Source of the DNA: an uncultured Clostridia bacterium | GTDB taxonomy: Bacteria > Bacillota > Clostridia > Lachnospirales > CAG-274 | DNA length: 33,027 nucleotides | Assembly: GCA_947631975.1 (NCBI GenBank) | Contig: CANRNM010000007.1 | Coordinates: 1 to 33,027, forward strand | Reading direction: 5' to 3' | Shown here: piece by piece, positions 4,744 to 32,505 of the stretch | Position numbering within the stretch: the stretch's first letter is position 1 | Layout: each line of letters starts with the position of its first letter | The notes under the pieces: generated by a model | Told to the model about the DNA's origin: nothing | Seen by the model: only the letters and a program-made list of their open reading frames with translations | Database searches by the model: none | Translations under genes and position numbers: made by a program

Positions 4744-7700
4744 TTACTTCACATTCACATAGCTATATGTGCTGTCGAGTGTTTTCTGGAGTATCTGAGC
4801 GACATCCGCCGATGTGAGCTTATCGTTGCCCGATACCTTGCAGCGCTCTATCTCCTCGTCCGTCATGTCGGAGGCTGCGGGAGAAAGAACATATTTAAGC
4901 ACTCTGTCCGCATCCTTAACGGTTATTTCGCCGTCGCTGTCTGCGTCGCCCCTGTTTCCGGCGTCAAGCTCGATATTGCTGAACTGTGTTGCGTTGTATC
5001 TCACAAGCTTCATGGAATCCTGAGCCGCATCCGTGGCAAAGCCAACATAAACGGTCTCGGGAAGAGTTGTTGTGTATGTGCCTATATCATACCACTTGCT
5101 GCCGTCAAGAGAAGCTAAAAGAGTAATCTCCTGTCCCTTTCTCTCTATCCTTGCCCAGCCGATATTTGTTTCCTTGTCAACTCTTACCGCGGGAACGCCG
5201 AGCATGGTCGAAGCTCCGCCGTATCCTACATTGCCGTCTGCCGTGCCGTCTACCGTGCTTCTGTATATTGCTCTTATATTTTTAGCCTTTACAAAGCTGC
5301 CCGTTATGTCCGTAGAACCTTCATAGTCCTCGCCCTTTAAGTATGTGAGCGAAGGCATATAGAACTCTGCCGTGGGCTCAAGGCTTGCGCGTACCATAAG
5401 ACCCGACTGCTGATAGTAGTCGAGCTTAGCAAGGTTTTCAACCTTTGCAGTGAATGTAAAGTCGCCCTTTACCTGCTTATAGTTGAAGTGGAAGGCGTCG
5501 GGAGCCTGAGCCGAAGCCGTGGCGAGCATGCCTATGTGACCTGCGCCCTCCGAAACAAGCGTATTTGACGCGCTGTCGTAGTAGTCTGCGCCCTTTGCCT
5601 TTACCTCGCCTATGTCGGCTGATGTGAAGCCTTCAAGGTTTCCGTTCTGTGCCGCCTCAACGACCGTTACGGGAACCACGGTTGAAATATTGCTTCCCTT
5701 GTCGCCCTTTACGCTGAGTGAAAGAGTGTATGTTCCTACAGCCGTATCTGCGGGAATTGTAAATTCGTCGCTGTTTTCGGCGATCACCTTGTCATTGAGC
5801 AGTATGCTGTAATTTCCTGCGCCTGCGCTCTTTGTGATGGTGTAGCTCTTGCCCTTTGCAAGAGTAACGTTTACATCTATATCGCCTACGGTCTGACCGT
5901 TTTCGTTAACTGCCGTTATAGCAGCCTCGGGAGCCTCCTCCTTTGCGGGCTTTGTGCTCTCGTCCCATTCGCCCAGAAGGTCGCATGCATATACCTCTAT
6001 GTTTGTGTAGCCAAGATAGGGCTTTGTTTCGTCCGTAACTATGGCAGATGCGTCAGCATTGTCGTTGGGATCAAGACCGTGAGCGCTCTCCCATTCGTCG
6101 GGTATGCCGTCGGAATCTGTATCCGTTGGCGCGGTGCCTGCGTTGAGAGTACCTATTCCGCCCGCTTCAAATTCATTGTTTATGAAGCGGCCCGTGCCGT
6201 TTTTAAGCTCTCTTATGAGCCTTGCGTCCTGAGCGTCTCTCACATAGCTTGCGCCAACGCCGTCAAGAACTGCCTTGTAAGCGTCCTCTGCGCTTGTTGC
6301 TGTATATTTTTCCGTAAGCTCAACGGGAGCAGTAAGCGTTCTTGCGTCGCTTATACCGCTGAAACCGAGCTTATTGTCTGCGGTTACTTCGGCGCTCGAA
6401 GTCATTACATTGTCCTTGAAGTAGAAGCTGCTGCCGTCCACATCAAATATCTGTGTGCCTACCTTTTCAAGAGTGTTGTTGCCGGGCTTATAATAGTTGC
6501 CTATCATATTAGCCTTGCCGTCGCCTCTCTCTCCGCCGTAGCCGGAGTTATGTCCCCAGTTGTAGACTACATTGTTTGAAAATTCAAGCTTATTGGGATA
6601 TGTAATGCCCGAATATGTGAAACCGCCCTCAAAACGGGGATTTCTGGTGCCGTGGTTAGCCCAGAGGTTGTGCGTATAGCTTACATCGGAGCCGTTTATT
6701 ATAGAGCCCATGCCGTGCTTTGCTTCGCTCTCGCCCGCAGCCACCTCATTGTCGCCGTTCATTATGCCCGTCTTGTTGGGGAATGAAAGGCTGCTTGCGA
6801 TGATGTTGTACTGTATGCTGGAGTTTATTATTTCCTTTGCCGAGAAGCACTCGTCAACGCCCCATGAGAATGTACAGTGGTCTATAACTATGTTTGAACC
6901 CGTTGCGGAAGCCGCATCCTGGTCGTAGCCCTCGCCGAGACGGAAACGTATGTATCTTGCGATTATGTCCGTGCCGTCAAACTTTGCGGAAGCGCCGTAT
7001 ATGGTTATGCCTTCTCCCGGAGCCGTCTGACCCAGAATAGTGGTGTTGCTGTTTATATTGAGTCTTCTTGCGTTCTTTGCAACCTCGGGGTCTACATTTA
7101 TAACACCGCCTACGGCAAATGTTATTATAACGGGATAATTCTTGTCGCCGTCGGTCCTGTATTTTCTCTCAAGACCATAGCGCAGAGAACCCGGCTGAGG
7201 ATCGGAAACGCTGTCCGTAAGGTTTGTAACAATGTACACATCGGCAGGCCTTGTCTCGGAGCCTCTGCCGCCCTGCGAATACTTTCCGCTGCCTTCAACG
7301 GTGGGGAAAGCGGGGTATTTTATAGCGGCAGCAGGAGTAACTACGGATGTTTCAAATGTTTTGAGCGTATTGCCGCTGCTGTCCTTTGCCGTAACTCTGA
7401 TGAGGTATTCCTTATTGCCCTCTACAGAACCCGTAAATTCCTCCGCAAACTGATTAAGAAGGAAAAATGTAGTACATCTGTCTGTTGAATCGGGTCTTTC
7501 AAGCTTCTTGCCGTGTATAAGGTCATCGGGATTTGATATAGTCTTGTCGGTATCCCAACTTGCGCCGTTATCACCGGAATATTCTATTACATATGACCTT
7601 GCAAAATCATTTGCAACAACTTTGTCGCTGAGATATGCATCTTTTATAAATTTGTTATTTGCATTTATGCCGGGGTCATGTATAACAATAGGATAATCCG

Positions 7701-8079
7701 TCTTTTCGTCTGTCAGACCAAGAAGTACCTGACAAGGCTGCTTGGATGATTTGTCCGGATTTGTGGTGTGTGAACCGTCTATTTTCCAGTTAGGGAAATT
7801 AACTATCATACCCTGTGTGGGGTTTGTCCATCCCTGCTTAGGATTTTTGGTCGATTCCATCTGTCCATCCGCTTTAAGGGGATTAGCCTGGATAGGTTCG
7901 CCCTTTTCGTCAACGGCAGGCCATGTGAGAATAACCTTGCCGTCCTCAATGCTTGCTTCAAGATCGTTGGTAATGTGATAATCATAATCATTACTGTTAT
8001 AATATCCAAAAGCAAATGAATTAAAGAGCGTAAGTGTCATTACCATAGCAAGTGCCATGGCTGTAATTCTTTTAAGCAT
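4744..8079 (-). CDS. Secreted PL1 pectate lyase with C-terminal dockerin
   Basis: Cleaves polygalacturonate by beta-elimination outside the cell. About 1111 aa: signal peptide (1-24); fibronectin-III-like region (about 35-250); PL1 right-handed beta-helix (about 255-640) opening with the family pattern PAFPTVEGSGKYSQGGRG and PGSLRYGL. It carries IVIDHCTFSWGVDE (398-410; Asp/His of the Ca-binding wall) and NHGTRNPRF (475-483; catalytic-arginine region). Next come a DTDSDGIPDEWE calcium-type motif (about 652-663), an Ig/cadherin-like domain (715-807), a DUF1349/concanavalin-like beta-sandwich (about 815-1037) and a type I dockerin (about 1042-1104). The first dockerin loop DADSDGEITVKD is canonical; the second (KVSGNDKLTSAD) lacks the usual Asp1. 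GAAAGGAG sits 11 nt upstream of ATG. Most PL1 enzymes are 350-500 aa, so it is unusually modular. Confidence 0.93.
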   Translation of the reverse strand: MLKRITAMALAMVMTLTLFNSFAFGYYNSNDYDYHITNDLEASIEDGKVILTWPAVDEKGEPIQANPLKADGQMESTKNPKQGWTNPTQGMIVNFPNWKIDGSHTTNPDKSSKQPCQVLLGLTDEKTDYPIVIHDPGINANNKFIKDAYLSDKVVANDFARSYVIEYSGDNGASWDTDKTISNPDDLIHGKKLERPDSTDRCTTFFLLNQFAEEFTGSVEGNKEYLIRVTAKDSSGNTLKTFETSVVTPAAAIKYPAFPTVEGSGKYSQGGRGSETRPADVYIVTNLTDSVSDPQPGSLRYGLERKYRTDGDKNYPVIITFAVGGVINVDPEVAKNARRLNINSNTTILGQTAPGEGITIYGASAKFDGTDIIARYIRFRLGEGYDQDAASATGSNIVIDHCTFSWGVDECFSAKEIINSSIQYNIIASSLSFPNKTGIMNGDNEVAAGESEAKHGMGSIINGSDVSYTHNLWANHGTRNPRFEGGFTYSGITYPNKLEFSNNVVYNWGHNSGYGGERGDGKANMIGNYYKPGNNTLEKVGTQIFDVDGSSFYFKDNVMTSSAEVTADNKLGFSGISDARTLTAPVELTEKYTATSAEDAYKAVLDGVGASYVRDAQDARLIRELKNGTGRFINNEFEAGGIGTLNAGTAPTDTDSDGIPDEWESAHGLDPNDNADASAIVTDETKPYLGYTNIEVYACDLLGEWDESTKPAKEEAPEAAITAVNENGQTVGDIDVNVTLAKGKSYTITKSAGAGNYSILLNDKVIAENSDEFTIPADTAVGTYTLSLSVKGDKGSNISTVVPVTVVEAAQNGNLEGFTSADIGEVKAKGADYYDSASNTLVSEGAGHIGMLATASAQAPDAFHFNYKQVKGDFTFTAKVENLAKLDYYQQSGLMVRASLEPTAEFYMPSLTYLKGEDYEGSTDITGSFVKAKNIRAIYRSTVDGTADGNVGYGGASTMLGVPAVRVDKETNIGWARIERKGQEITLLASLDGSKWYDIGTYTTTLPETVYVGFATDAAQDSMKLVRYNATQFSNIELDAGNRGDADSDGEITVKDADRVLKYVLSPAASDMTDEEIERCKVSGNDKLTSADVAQILQKTLDSTYSYVNVK

Positions 8080-11945: not shown

Positions 11946-13628
11946 TTAAAACACATCGCATATCTGTTCGCCGGGTATCCTATCATTATATACATAGCTG
12001 TATATCATATCCCTATAAGCGTAGACCTTATCGGTGAGTTCCTTTGCCTTTGCGTCATCGGGAACGGTCAGCGTAAGGTCGCCGGGAGTATCCGGATATT
12101 TGGGATTTGAGGTCTTATTTTCGCCCTGTATGCTGTAGAATACGCCCTTCATGCTCTTTGCCTTCATTCTGTCCATCCAGTAGTTCTGGGCATTGTTGAA
12201 GCTCAATGTGTTTTCGATGTCATAGCCTGCGCTGCCGTTGTTCTGGTCAAAGCCCTTGGCGTTTTCCTGATTTGGCGTGCTTGCATGGTCGAAGGCTATA
12301 CAGTTCTTTATATATCTGTAAGAGCTTGACGGGGTTTCCGCCGAGCCGAACTTGAAGCCGTTGGGGTTGCCTCCCCAGCTGCCGCTGTGTATATTGTTAT
12401 AGTTGTTGCTCGTGCCGAGAAGCCTTACCGTTTCCTTGGGCCAGCTCGTTACGCTGTGAGAGTTATACTTTGCCTCGAAATCGGGGTCGTTTTTGAGTAT
12501 TTCCTTTACATACAGAAGATTCTTGTCAAGCGGGAAACCGTGTTCGTAGTCATATTCGCCCGTGAAGGCATAGGGATTGCCGTTATTCCAGGCAAGACAT
12601 TCCTCATAGTATACGCTTCCTATATAAGGCGTGCCTCTGTCGTAGCTGTCCCAGCCGTCGTCGCTGTTTTCCCATGCACGGCAGTTGTAGAATTTGTTTT
12701 CCTCGCCCGCCTGGAGCTTAACGGAAAATCCGTCCGCATCGGCGCCGTTTTTCTGTATAAGGTCGGCATTTCTGTAGCTGTCCACAAATCTGAAGGTATT
12801 GTGAGAACTGCCTTCCGTAATGGAAACGCCCGAATTGTTGTTATATCTGAATACGCAGTTTTCAAATGTGCAGTAGCCTGCGTTTTTGCCCTTTATTCTT
12901 ATTCCGCAGTCACCCGCGTTCTGAACTATAATATTGCTGAAGCTGTAATAAGAACCGCTGACACGAATACCCGTTCCGCTTTCACCGCTCTTATTTAAGC
13001 TGTCTCTGAACTTTGCAAAGTCGAGAGTTGCCGCCGTGCCGTCGGGATTTGTGATTCCCACTATGTCTACATTTGCATTTTGCGCCTCAAGCATAAGGCT
13101 TTCCGTACACTCGATGGTGCCCTTTACATAGACCTTATTATTTTTCTTTGCAAGCTCACGCTTGAAGTCGTCAAAGTTGTCCACCACAACGCCGTCGCTG
13201 TAATCGCCCGTAGTAACCTCTGTGGTTTTGTCGGTCGTTGCCTCCGTAGGCTTTTCGGTAGCTTTTTCTGTAGTGGTTTCCGTAGGCTTTTCGGTGGTGG
13301 TCTCCGTGGGCTTCTCCGTGGTGGTTTCCCTTTCGGGCACAGCCGAAGGCTTATATCCCGAGTCGAGTATCATCTGGAGTATTTCTGCCACATCTGCCGA
13401 ATCAAGCGTATTGTCGCCGTTTACATCCACTATCTCCATATAGTTTTCTTTGCTTTCGATAGGCATTTTTTCTCCCGTGAGTACCCTTTTGAGCACTGTG
13501 GAAGCGTCGTTGATCTCAAGCCTTCCGTTGTTGTCGGCGTCGCCGTAAACTATAGTGTCGGCGCTGACAAGAGCCGTGAGCGAAAGCGCGGCTAAAATCG
13601 CAGAAAATGCAATAACAAGTTTTTTCAT
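11946..13628 (-). CDS. Secreted PL9 pectate lyase with N-terminal dockerin
   Basis: Cleaves polygalacturonate outside the cell. 560 aa: signal peptide (1-23); type I dockerin (about 27-92) with two canonical Ca loops, DADNNGRLEIND and DVNGDNTLDSAD; a Thr-Glu-Lys-Pro repeat linker (about 101-139); then a right-handed beta-helix of the PL9 type. In Dickeya Pel9A four Asp residues bind Ca and a Lys is the base. The equivalents here are Asp299 (GADADGFSV), Asp323/Asp324/Asp327 (NSDDGWDSYD) and Lys426 (NPNGFKFG). Dockerins are more often C-terminal, so the order is notable. The ribosome binding site is AAAGGAGAGG. It starts 22 nt after the YgiT-like gene and may be the last gene of a four-gene run. 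Confidence 0.92.
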   Translation of the reverse strand: MKKLVIAFSAILAALSLTALVSADTIVYGDADNNGRLEINDASTVLKRVLTGEKMPIESKENYMEIVDVNGDNTLDSADVAEILQMILDSGYKPSAVPERETTTEKPTETTTEKPTETTTEKATEKPTEATTDKTTEVTTGDYSDGVVVDNFDDFKRELAKKNNKVYVKGTIECTESLMLEAQNANVDIVGITNPDGTAATLDFAKFRDSLNKSGESGTGIRVSGSYYSFSNIIVQNAGDCGIRIKGKNAGYCTFENCVFRYNNNSGVSITEGSSHNTFRFVDSYRNADLIQKNGADADGFSVKLQAGEENKFYNCRAWENSDDGWDSYDRGTPYIGSVYYEECLAWNNGNPYAFTGEYDYEHGFPLDKNLLYVKEILKNDPDFEAKYNSHSVTSWPKETVRLLGTSNNYNNIHSGSWGGNPNGFKFGSAETPSSSYRYIKNCIAFDHASTPNQENAKGFDQNNGSAGYDIENTLSFNNAQNYWMDRMKAKSMKGVFYSIQGENKTSNPKYPDTPGDLTLTVPDDAKAKELTDKVYAYRDMIYSYVYNDRIPGEQICDVF

Positions 13629-28393: not shown

Positions 28394-28414
28394 AAGCCCC
28401 CGAAATGGGGGCTT
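28394..28414. terminator. Bidirectional terminator between nth and the 50-aa peptide gene
   Basis: AAGCCCCC (28394-28401), loop GAAAT and GGGGGCTT (28407-28414). TTTTT follows on the minus strand; AAAATTATTTTTT follows on the plus strand. It closes both converging transcripts. Confidence 0.85.
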
Positions 28415-28418
28415 AAAA

Positions 28419-28571
28419 TTATTTTTTCAAATCATTAAGACTAACTTTTTTAAGAGCACCTGTATCTGCCGTACCCACAGTTGCCGTTGTATTTGATATA
28501 AGATTATTTGTATTATCTGCGGAAGCGAATATAACTACTTCTGCATCGGGATAAGTATATGTCTTTTTCAT
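28419..28571 (-). CDS. 50-aa peptide cotranscribed with the pectin methylesterase
   Basis: A 50-codon gene with an ideal AAGGAGG site 7 nt before ATG, starting 16 nt after the stop of the pectin methylesterase gene and ending just before a terminator. The peptide starts MKKTYTYPDAEVVIFASAD, continues with a Thr/Asn-rich middle (NTNNLISNTTATVGTADTG) and ends LKKVSLNDLKK. It has no signal peptide, cysteine or membrane helix. The KxYxxPxAExVxF start resembles a loose group of 45-60-aa peptides common in gut Firmicutes and Bacteroidetes, whose function I do not know. A secreted or processed peptide precursor is one possibility. The ribosome binding site and position make a real gene likely. Confidence 0.72.
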   Translation of the reverse strand: MKKTYTYPDAEVVIFASADNTNNLISNTTATVGTADTGALKKVSLNDLKK

Positions 28572-28587
28572 AATATCGCCTCCTTAA

Positions 28588-31500
28588 TTACTCTGTAATA
28601 ATAGTATTTAAAGCAAATGTCTTCGCAGGACCGTAAACGGTTTCGTCATCTGCTGTTTTCTGTAATGTTCTTACATAGAGATTTTCAGCATCTCCAAGAT
28701 TATCTTTCGTTGCATCTTTTATGACATAAGCAAAGATGTATTTACCTTCTTCTGTGATCTCTTTTTGTTTACTTCCGCCTTTTTCCGTATATGTTATTTT
28801 TTCATATACATTATCATCTGTGTATTGTTCCTTTGTATCAGTAATAAGATTATCCTTGGTAGAAAGTAAGAAGCCTATATTATCTGCACCCTTAATATTA
28901 CCCTTTGCAATAGTAGCATATACAATAAGATTTTTGTTGTTGTCTGCCACAACGCCTATTTCATTACTACTTGCGCCGGTTTCGTCAACTATTGAAGGTG
29001 TATAATGCTTAGGTGTCCAGCCGTTTAGATAAGCAGTATCAATGCTTGCAATGAGTTTATTATAGTCCTCATCTGACATGTGTATCTTATCAATCGGAAT
29101 ATTAGTTTTGTTTCCTTCTTCAGGTTGTGATAAAAATTCTTCATCGCCTTTCTTATTCATGTATTCGCCAAAATTAGCTGAACTAGGCTGTCTGCCGCTC
29201 ATTTCGTGCCAGCCTTCATCAGGAACGCATCCATTTGTCTGAGTATTTATAAACTTAACATCTGCGCCTTCTTTCCAAGGTCTGCCATAATAAGCTGTTG
29301 CAGGATACTCCTGATTAATTGTATTTGCTTTAATAGTACAATTAAGGAAAAGATATTTAGTATTCTGTGCAGCTGTAATGTAGCTAGCCTTGTCACTCTC
29401 TTGATAGCCTAATATCTGGAGTGTACAGCTTTCAAATACCATATCGCCTGCACCACATATATAGTCTACATTACCGCCAAGTACACATTCCTTGAAATAT
29501 GCTTTTTTATTGTGAGCGCTATTATATCCTATAGCGTCCTGACTACTTAAAACAGTTACCTTGTAGAATTCTGCATTATCACTTTTATCTGAAAGTGCCA
29601 GTGCATTTGCTCTTTCTTTGGCAGCATATGTAGTTACATCAACAGAGGCATTGCCGTATCTTCTATAGCATCTGTCATTCTCTTCTTCTGCTCCAAAATT
29701 ATCGAGTTCATCAGGATCATATATAACTGCATTGTTTTCTATCTTACAGATATATGCTCCGTCTGCCTTTTCTTTATCATCTATTACATAGTTATATGTA
29801 TTTTTAAAGGTAACATTTTCAGCATAGAAGTAAGGTGCGTCTACTATAACAACACCGCCCCAGAATTTTGAGCTTGCAATGTTTTTTTCGTATTTATCGT
29901 GGAAAAGCTCGTCATCATAAAAGCCGTCTGAATTTACGCTGTAATAAGCACCGCGCATACCGTAATACCAACTTATGGTATGACCATCGCCATCACCTAC
30001 TATAGAAACATAAGGTACATCTACATGAACCTGTTCCTGTATATCTTCAGTAAGTGTTATTGTTACTCTACCGTCTTCATCCAGTGTTCTGTCCATGGCT
30101 TTTATAGCTTCAATAGCCTTAGTAATCGTAGGATAATCACCGGGAACCTTAATATCTTTCTTTGTTTCTACTGCATTCTGTACCTTTATCCATTTAAGGT
30201 ATGTATTATCTGCCTTTATGTTTACAGTTACACTTGTTTCTTCTCCGTCTGATGTATAAGAGGTTGTTTTAGGATTGCTTTCGCTTGAACCATCGCCTTG
30301 TGTAACGGTTACCACGTTTTGACCGTTAATATCCCATGTACCACTGTTCCAGCCTGCAACAGTTACAGTCTGCTTACCGGTTACGGGAACGATTATTGTT
30401 GAGTTGGTTTTACAGAGTACAGCCTTACCCTGATGTTCATCGACACCTGCAGAATATTTAAGTTTAGAACCCTCTCCCAGCTTAATATCATCAGAGAGCA
30501 TATACGTTGTAACTGAAGGCATTACAAAGAATATTTCTTCATTTTCAACATTATTGTCACCAACGTGTACCCTGTTCTTTGTAGCAGCACCGTTCTTTGT
30601 AACGGCTACGGTATTATAATCACCTGGTTTTACACTTGCAGTATAGGTCACATTACCGCCGTTGCCTGCAGCATTTATATCAAATTTAGTCTCAGGGTCC
30701 TCCATACTTACAAACTGAATGCTTGTAATATCAGAAGCATCGGTTACAGCACCTGTTATTTCACCCGATACAGTTATATTACCCTGTGACTCAACATCAA
30801 TTGTTATTTCACTCTGACTATCGACCGTAATGGTTCTTTCACCACCTACTGTAGCCTTAAAATTAATATCGCTTGATTTTATATTATAAGTATGGTTTTT
30901 GAGAAGAGAAATACTTCCATCGTTTGTAACAGCCTGATATTTTTCACCTGTCAATGTATCTATAAAACCTATTTCAGGCGTTGGCTGTTCTGAGGTATTA
31001 TTTATTTTTACATTGATATCTTGAGGTGTTTCTTCGGTAACCTCTATTATACCGAAATAATCATTTCCGCCCATAACAACAGGAACATATGATTTCTCGG
31101 CAAGATTTACAGTTCCATAAACCTTATTTATAGTATCTGAGTTCTTTGCAACTTTGTTGATAGTCATAGGTATGTTAGGCGAAAATGTAGTTATAGAAAT
31201 AGTTGATACGCCTTCTTTAACAGGAATACTTACAATAGTATCCTTGTTTACCTGTGCCCAGTTGCTGTAAGATACACCGTCATTGTTTAGTCTTACAGAA
31301 TTAAACTTTGCACCGGTTGCTGTAGCATCAATAATAAGGTCGTGGAATGTCTGCTTTGAACCCTGATTTACTTCAATACCTTTTTCATTTATTAATTCCT
31401 TATCATTCAAGAAATCCCATTTTGTTCCAAATTCAGCGGGAACTTGTTCCTTTTCCGGATCCGGTTTGATAGTTAAGTAGTGAATGTATGTATTGCTAGG

Positions 31501-32505
31501 GAAAGTCAAGGTAATAGTTGCACCTGTACCCTCGTATCTAAGTTTGTATTCCTTATCTTCTGTCTGGGTACCTTTAATATCCGTATTAGATTCAATAATA
31601 CCATTACCATCAACTTCAGCCGTTAATGTTGCTTCACTATTGTTATATCTACAACCGCCATACAAAATATCTGTATCACCGGGAACTTTAAATGATATTT
31701 TTGTTTCAGAGTTAATTCTTAAACCATGATTATTGCTGCCTGTCTCATATGAAATATTACCATTTAATTTTAAGTTGCCCTTATCAATATACTTATCATT
31801 GCCTGCCGTTGCAGAAAAACCATTGTATATTGATTCATCTTTTAAAAACTGGTAATCATAGGGTTCACCCTTTTTCATTTCTGCCAATCCGGTTATGTCA
31901 CCTTTAACAGTTATGCCTAAATAGTGAATATATGAGCCGACAGGAACAGTAATAGTTATTGTATCTTCTCCGCCTGTGTATTCAATAGTTGTTGCGCTTG
32001 ATGCATCTGTCTGACAGGATGAACTTTTATTTGAAAAGCTTTCTGGTTTTAAAGTACCGTCTCCTTCTTTTGCAACGGTAATATCTATAGCACCATTATT
32101 AGGCCATGCGCAAACTCCTAATTGTATTGTTGCATCACCTGCAACCTTAAACTTTATAGTTGCTTCACCGTTAAAGTATAAACTACCATGCTTGGTACGA
32201 TAACAAACACCATCTGTATTATTTGAGGCTGTAACAGATACATAGCCATCTTTTGAATCATATGAAGTTATACTTGTAGTGATTGGATCTGAATCTCCAT
32301 ATGATGGCAATAGAGTATCCGAATAGTCTGAGAATGTGCCATTACCTCCTTCGGTAGCAAAATTTTTAAAAGAATAACTTAATGTTTTATCCTTTGGAAT
32401 AACTGTCAATTCTTCCGCGCTTGCCGTTACCGTCATAATGCTCACGCAAGAAAGCATCATAACCAACGCCATAAGAGCGCTTATGCCCTTTCTAAATTTT
32501 TTCAT
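28588..32505 (-). CDS. Large secreted pectin methylesterase (CE8)
   Basis: Removes methyl esters from pectin, making it a substrate for the pectate lyases in this window. 1305 aa: signal peptide (1-30); about 750 residues of beta-sandwich modules, of which three end in related motifs (SYIHYLGITVKG near 200, NTYIHYLTIKPD near 348, NTYLKWIKVQN near 776); then the CE8 beta-helix (about 784-1120). Catalytic landmarks are QDAIGYN (Asp990), GNVDYICGAG (Asp1014) and GRPW (Arg1075, Trp1077). The C-terminal 125 residues form an extra beta domain. Unlike the two lyases it has no dockerin, and unlike the esterase no SLH-like repeats. The ribosome binding site is GGGAGG. The gene is more AT-rich than most neighbours. 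Confidence 0.93.
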   Translation of the reverse strand: MKKFRKGISALMALVMMLSCVSIMTVTASAEELTVIPKDKTLSYSFKNFATEGGNGTFSDYSDTLLPSYGDSDPITTSITSYDSKDGYVSVTASNNTDGVCYRTKHGSLYFNGEATIKFKVAGDATIQLGVCAWPNNGAIDITVAKEGDGTLKPESFSNKSSSCQTDASSATTIEYTGGEDTITITVPVGSYIHYLGITVKGDITGLAEMKKGEPYDYQFLKDESIYNGFSATAGNDKYIDKGNLKLNGNISYETGSNNHGLRINSETKISFKVPGDTDILYGGCRYNNSEATLTAEVDGNGIIESNTDIKGTQTEDKEYKLRYEGTGATITLTFPSNTYIHYLTIKPDPEKEQVPAEFGTKWDFLNDKELINEKGIEVNQGSKQTFHDLIIDATATGAKFNSVRLNNDGVSYSNWAQVNKDTIVSIPVKEGVSTISITTFSPNIPMTINKVAKNSDTINKVYGTVNLAEKSYVPVVMGGNDYFGIIEVTEETPQDINVKINNTSEQPTPEIGFIDTLTGEKYQAVTNDGSISLLKNHTYNIKSSDINFKATVGGERTITVDSQSEITIDVESQGNITVSGEITGAVTDASDITSIQFVSMEDPETKFDINAAGNGGNVTYTASVKPGDYNTVAVTKNGAATKNRVHVGDNNVENEEIFFVMPSVTTYMLSDDIKLGEGSKLKYSAGVDEHQGKAVLCKTNSTIIVPVTGKQTVTVAGWNSGTWDINGQNVVTVTQGDGSSESNPKTTSYTSDGEETSVTVNIKADNTYLKWIKVQNAVETKKDIKVPGDYPTITKAIEAIKAMDRTLDEDGRVTITLTEDIQEQVHVDVPYVSIVGDGDGHTISWYYGMRGAYYSVNSDGFYDDELFHDKYEKNIASSKFWGGVVIVDAPYFYAENVTFKNTYNYVIDDKEKADGAYICKIENNAVIYDPDELDNFGAEEENDRCYRRYGNASVDVTTYAAKERANALALSDKSDNAEFYKVTVLSSQDAIGYNSAHNKKAYFKECVLGGNVDYICGAGDMVFESCTLQILGYQESDKASYITAAQNTKYLFLNCTIKANTINQEYPATAYYGRPWKEGADVKFINTQTNGCVPDEGWHEMSGRQPSSANFGEYMNKKGDEEFLSQPEEGNKTNIPIDKIHMSDEDYNKLIASIDTAYLNGWTPKHYTPSIVDETGASSNEIGVVADNNKNLIVYATIAKGNIKGADNIGFLLSTKDNLITDTKEQYTDDNVYEKITYTEKGGSKQKEITEEGKYIFAYVIKDATKDNLGDAENLYVRTLQKTADDETVYGPAKTFALNTIITE

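Follow-up and report, generated by a model that had tools for sequence, protein, structure and literature searches.

A 50-residue peptide gene behind a secreted pectinesterase in an uncultured Clostridia bacterium: a proposed LPP-like RiPP precursor

What does a 50-codon open reading frame do directly behind the gene of a large secreted pectinesterase? The question is raised by a 33,027-nucleotide stretch of DNA from an uncultured Clostridia bacterium of the lineage CAG-274 (contig CANRNM010000007.1), here called the window. The reading favored below is that the gene encodes a dispersed, LPP-like RiPP precursor, probably matured in trans and partnered with the C-terminal domain of the secreted protein; this reading is drawn from sequence comparison.

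The peptide gene and its family

A preliminary description had noted an ideal ribosome-binding site, a 16-nt spacing from the esterase stop and a terminator after the gene. All three are present, and the coordinates hold on the minus strand (Table 1). The minus-strand translation of 28571 to 28419 is MKKTYTYPDAEVVIFASADNTNNLISNTTATVGTADTGALKKVSLNDLKK; a plus-strand reading of the same positions contains a stop and makes no sense, and was ruled out. The esterase stop codon TAA is followed by TTAAGGAGGCGATATT and then by the ATG of the peptide gene, a gap of 16 nt. The terminator hairpin is common to the peptide gene and a convergent endonuclease-III-like gene.

Table 1. Features of the peptide locus in the window and of the enzyme cassette elsewhere in the same genome (L185)
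Feature	Position	Strand	Basis or remark
50-aa peptide gene (proposed LPP-like RiPP precursor)	28419..28571, stop codon included	minus	translation, family profile, coding constraint
Shine-Dalgarno AGGAGG (perfect) of peptide gene	28579..28584	minus	sequence
Intrinsic terminator, strong hairpin, 3' of peptide gene	28394..28414	minus	hairpin scan
Predicted leader MKKTYTYPDAEVVIFAS, with RRE-binding motif YTYP	28521..28571	minus	register Y0, P+3, F+10, S/T/A+12
Predicted core ADNTNNLISNTTATVGTADTGALKKVSLNDLKK, 33 aa	28422..28520	minus	remainder past predicted cleavage site
Secreted pectinesterase, 1305 aa, partner and first gene of operon	28588..32505	minus	Pfam Pectinesterase E 3.2e-24; signal peptide MKKFRKGISALMALVMMLSCVSIMTVTASA
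C-terminal beta-sandwich domain of esterase, predicts downstream peptide gene	28612..28941	minus	profile A5 match, reciprocal test, low-confidence model
Stand-alone RRE	L185:5090-5356		same genome
HprK-like kinase	L185:5353-6072		same genome
Signal-peptidase-I-like (SpI-like) protease	L185:4642-5100		same genome

Among 433 kb of the window genome, 27 ORFs of 40-60 aa with a strong Shine-Dalgarno sequence were counted. Two carry YxxP near the start, and the window peptide is the only one of the 27 with both a fit to the family described below and a secreted protein upstream. The sequence comparisons confirm that the 50-residue ORF is a real gene and that its arrangement goes beyond chance. No match above cut-off was obtained for the window peptide and its relatives in Pfam and NCBIfam, and a PDB sequence search with the peptide gave nothing useful.

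A search of 97 related genomes with the single peptide sequence returned weak matches only, yet these supplied the seeds for profiles; several were ORFs of equal size with the same N-terminus, located behind long proteins. The same single-sequence scan of the window genome's own contigs found no relatives. Profile A1, built from six peptides, identified 11 places in the window genome and members in 33 of the 48 genomes of its taxonomic family. Profile A2, built from 50 members, detected as many as 18 copies in a single genome of that family. It had no match in 213 genomes sampled from the order's remaining families, and among 299 genomes sampled across the phylum it matched the window genome and one other (G526). 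The peptide family is undescribed. The named relatives are metagenome-assembled genomes labelled uncultured Clostridia with the isolate names 'Lapin', presumably from rabbit gut. Most peptide loci of the window genome sit on short contigs (C25-C143). Repeated modular secreted proteins seem to break the assembly, and the copies in this genome are probably undercounted.

Arrangement and motif were counted at 60 loci dissected in detail. The consensus is MKKxYxxPx[MIV]x[VI]xx[FY]x[STA]xD..., with a length of 42-56 aa. YxxP keeps its Y and its P in every peptide (60/60). Counted from Y, position +5 is always hydrophobic (60/60), +7 is V/I/L/M in 57 peptides, +10 is F/Y in 51, +12 is S/T/A in 53 and +14 is D/N/E in 54; S or T occurs somewhere in +16 to +19 in 51 of the 60. 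The cores vary strongly; at the C-terminus, [IV]xF or FxLH[SKR] is conserved. The Thr/Asn-rich core remarked on earlier is present in the window peptide, as one of many core types in the family. Over 45 alignable pairs the median dN/dS is 0.35, and changes by codon position number 472/450/764; the low ratio and the excess at third positions indicate that the frame is translated and constrained.

The preliminary description had held that loss of the frame at homologous loci would speak against the gene; the frame is conserved at the 60 loci, including a same-genus esterase locus (L077). The short length and the lack of a curated database family above cut-off would fit a functionless ORF that arose by chance or is decaying. 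Conservation of frame, start, Shine-Dalgarno sequence and motif at 60 loci, together with the dN/dS value, makes this explanation scarcely credible.

Secreted partner proteins and their C-terminal domain

All 60 peptides lie directly behind a long ORF. They start -4 to +33 nt past the upstream stop, mostly 12-22 nt, and nearly all have a strong Shine-Dalgarno sequence. A clear signal peptide, called by a simple hydrophobicity rule, is found in 37 of the upstream proteins, which is most of those that do not run off the sequence. The partners comprise pectinesterases, a pectate lyase, GDSL esterases, an M60 peptidase, BspA-type LRR proteins and a Big_2 protein, as well as many unannotated secreted proteins without a Pfam domain. 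A coupling specific to pectin methylesterase is ruled out by this diversity. The earlier suggestion of a role tied to the esterase is partly supported: the peptide and the esterase's C-terminal domain are inherited together.

Across 433 kb of the window genome, the peptide stands behind 1 of 40 secreted-like proteins and behind none of 362 other gene models. The system is therefore selective, and a general secretion element was ruled out. Dockerin, SLH and cohesin models gave no match in 29 upstream proteins, some of them cut at the 5' end; several peptide-less secreted proteins of the window genome bear such domains. A second secreted pectinesterase of this genome (L205:2363-6562), joined in one polypeptide with a GDSL esterase and an SLH domain, has no peptide gene behind it. 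Within the window, pectin-degrading proteins with dockerin-like ends are encoded at 4744-8079 and 11946-13628, the dockerin of the latter just under the Pfam cut-off, and a cohesin protein is encoded on L216 of the same genome. These sequences hint at a small cellulosome-like system alongside the peptide system.

Similarity between cores correlates with similarity between the C-terminal 110 residues of the partners (r 0.63; 0.84 within genomes), and none of 2000 permutations reached either value. Part of this co-variation must reflect duplication of both genes as a unit; that peptide and secreted protein stay together as a unit is informative in itself. A profile of eight partner C-terminal domains (A5), built blind to the peptides, gave matches in 17 genomes, all of which carry peptides. 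A YxxP peptide gene stands immediately behind each of its 15 strong matches (E < 1e-11), and seven of these matches are outside the earlier set. Over all matches this holds for 21 of 25, and in the four exceptions the domain is non-terminal or the contig ends. The esterase C-terminus was modelled by AlphaFold2 from one sequence, and at a pLDDT of 58.6 a beta-sandwich is all that can be read from it.

These results bear on the idea of the core as a secreted signal or antagonist peptide, with the secreted protein merely a co-expressed neighbor that shares its niche and regulation. RiPPs are often signals or bacteriocins, and strongly variable cores would suit such a role. It is at odds with the presence of up to 18 divergent copies in one genome, every one with a secreted protein of its own, and with the tracking of core type with the partner domain within genomes; no immunity or receptor gene was noted beside the window gene. 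We regard a role of this kind as improbable.

An operon of kinase, RRE and protease

Two family peptides gave weak, sub-threshold NCBIfam matches to lasso-precursor models. Because of these matches, and because YxxP is the leader motif read by RREs (PMC13381572), the same 48 genomes of the family were searched for PF05402 (PqqD/RRE). Among the near-complete ones, all 26 that carry peptides also encode a stand-alone RRE (about 88 aa, E < 1e-12), and none of the 13 peptide-free ones does (Fisher 1.2e-10; the genomes are phylogenetically clustered and not independent). The genus g5 includes both states, and RRE and peptides change together there. Three exceptions to the co-occurrence are genomes that are 70-78% complete. 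The RRE resembles the lasso RRE TbiB1 and PqqD-family chains in PDB.

In about 17 of 20 neighborhoods, that of the window genome (L185) included, the RRE gene lies between genes for an HprK/ScmC-like kinase and an SpI-like protease. In three g5 genomes the RRE is accompanied by the kinase, and an ABC exporter gene adjoins them in two or three of these. Residues S33, H71 and D87 of the protease form a candidate catalytic Ser-His-Asp; a PDB sequence search with the kinase yielded nothing useful. No precursor was seen adjoining the enzymes in the 20 neighborhoods, and the L185 cassette has neither exporter nor NTP transferase. NTP_transf_5 was not found in the window genome; within the family it is confined to peptide-bearing genomes (19/26 vs 0/13). 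In several genomes of the family there is also another RRE type, divergent and 113-134 aa long, and NTP_transf_5 genes number as many as five, which suggests further RiPP clusters.

Peptide and enzymes are physically joined in two other families. Locus L225 (G526) encodes, on one strand throughout, a long protein, a peptide beginning MKELYEEPVIEIVHFQPEDIITNDS..., a small lipoprotein-like product, kinase, RRE and protease. Locus L237 (G639), found via a kinase profile, encodes a 1237-aa fn3 protein, a peptide beginning MKKIYEKPVIEIEIFEIEDIITSSG..., kinase, RRE, protease, ABC exporter and NTP_transf_5, in the order of the published lpp genes. Three additional loci (L239, L240 and L241, in G439 and G271) contain an HprK-like kinase, an RRE, a CxxxCxxC-like radical-SAM-motif protein, an SpI-like protease and an ABC exporter, with further YxxP peptides, some of them behind other genes; these seem to be RiPP clusters of a related but different type.

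The peptide might instead be an unprocessed cytosolic partner, a small export chaperone or pilot that binds the C-terminal domain of the secreted protein at the ribosome exit, with the RRE operon delivering or modifying it without cutting, or co-occurring for some other reason. The pairing with the C-terminal domain fits this picture, the peptide is never fused to the secreted protein among the matches seen, and its conserved C-terminal end suggests that the full-length peptide may matter. It is nonetheless unlikely in view of the leader-like N-terminus with YxxP and F-x-[STA], the peptides within the kinase-RRE-protease operon in G526 and G639, and the perfect co-occurrence with the RRE.

Relation to known RiPPs and proposed maturation

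Linear polyphosphorylated peptides (LPP) are RiPPs of Bacillota, exemplified by the lpp cluster of Paenibacillus alginolyticus, whose core enzymes are an HprK-like kinase, a discrete RRE and an SpI-like protease; an MsbA-like exporter and an NTP transferase are also encoded (Popov et al. 2026, PMC13381572). There LppB binds the YxxP leader, LppK phosphorylates the core and LppS cuts after F-E-T, so that LPP maturation has experimental precedent (PMC13381572). Features of LPP are a phosphorylated Ser at core position 3, a VLxHQxI motif and a precursor within the biosynthetic cluster (PMC13381572). The window family shares the enzyme trio, in the window genome and in 17/20 neighborhoods, and the YxxP leader with F-x-small residue ahead of the likely cut; exporter and NTP_transf_5 follow in the same order in the G639 cluster. 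However, its Y-to-F spacing is 3 residues shorter, VLxHQxI is not conserved, and neither is the phosphosite S3, where I/N/V/K mostly occur. The precursor lies in the biosynthetic cluster in G526 and G639, whereas in the window's own family precursors are scattered, up to 18 per genome and each behind a secreted protein, with none beside the enzymes; exporter and NTP transferase are missing from the window-genome cassette. These differences in leader spacing, phosphosite and precursor location set the family apart from plain LPP members.

Paeninodin-like and other lasso peptides also have a YxxP-type leader read by a discrete RRE, and an HprK-like kinase occurs in paeninodin clusters, although paeninodins themselves use WxxP (PMC13381572). 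The lasso B2 protease (PF13471) gave no match above cut-off in 48 genomes and none whatever in the window genome, and no asparagine-synthase-like macrolactam cyclase was seen beside the RRE in 20 neighborhoods. Lasso-peptide identity was rejected, as no B2 protease passed the cut-off in these 48 genomes. The SynChlorMet and HPr-rel-A cassette models (NCBIfam TIGR04249, TIGR04352, TIGR04353) have an HprK-related kinase and a PqqD-family chaperone in common with the system, but lack an SpI-like protease and a pairing with secreted proteins; the kinase and RRE of the window genome match them weakly, far under the curated cut-offs. Many precursors served in trans by one enzyme locus are also a feature of the prochlorosins, which depend on lanthipeptide enzymes and whose precursors are not known to be individually paired with secreted proteins. 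Literature searches returned nothing on such peptides behind secreted proteins. As far as these searches show, it is new that precursors occur in many scattered copies and that each is paired with one secreted protein.

The sequence data themselves show that the genes form a family, that they are linked in two-gene units to secreted proteins and the C-terminal domains of these, that the peptides occur together with the RRE, and that in two other lineages they are encoded within the kinase-RRE-protease operon. For the window peptide we infer leader binding, phosphorylation, cleavage, export and function as follows. The esterase and then the precursor would be translated, probably from one mRNA. 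The stand-alone RRE would bind YTYP of the leader, and the HprK-like kinase would phosphorylate the core, perhaps near D-x-[IT]-[TN]. The SpI-like protease would cut after F-x-[S/T/A], here FAS|ADNTN, to release the predicted core; the site was placed by analogy with F-3 x T-1 of LPP. The core of about 33 aa would be exported and act with the beta-sandwich domain at the C-terminus of the esterase encoded beside it, possibly retaining or decorating that protein at the cell surface. This surface role is the weakest step, drawn solely from the absence of other anchors in the partners. The processed peptide envisaged in the preliminary description agrees with an N-terminus that resembles a processed-RiPP leader.

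The LPP-like reading, which we consider likely, is based on the position behind a long ORF at all 60 loci, the 37 signal peptides, the RRE distribution, the operon in 17 of 20 neighborhoods, the G526 and G639 loci, the F-x-[STA] leader, the likeness of the RRE to TbiB1 and PqqD, the tracking of core and domain, and the 15 of 15 strong A5 matches. Against it stand the lack of a precursor beside the enzymes of the own family, the non-conserved S3 and VLxHQxI, the shorter Y-to-F spacing, the cassette without exporter and NTP transferase, the clustered co-occurrence and a possible unit duplication. As a bolder and rather doubtful proposal, LPP-type RiPPs might be protein-associated. Each matured, phosphate-bearing core would be joined, covalently or tightly, to the C-terminal domain of the secreted protein encoded with it, and would act as a modular tag for surface retention or decoration in place of dockerins, SLH domains or sortase.

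The locus offers a first clue to the job of LPP, a recently discovered peptide class (described 2026) with no known role. With precursors that are multiplied and dispersed, each of them tied to one secreted protein and that protein's C-terminal domain, the purpose of LPP becomes a testable peptide-protein pairing. A search confined to the surroundings of the biosynthetic enzymes would overlook most or even all of the precursors in genomes of this kind. For uncultured gut Clostridia, the system is a possible new way to handle extracellular enzymes.
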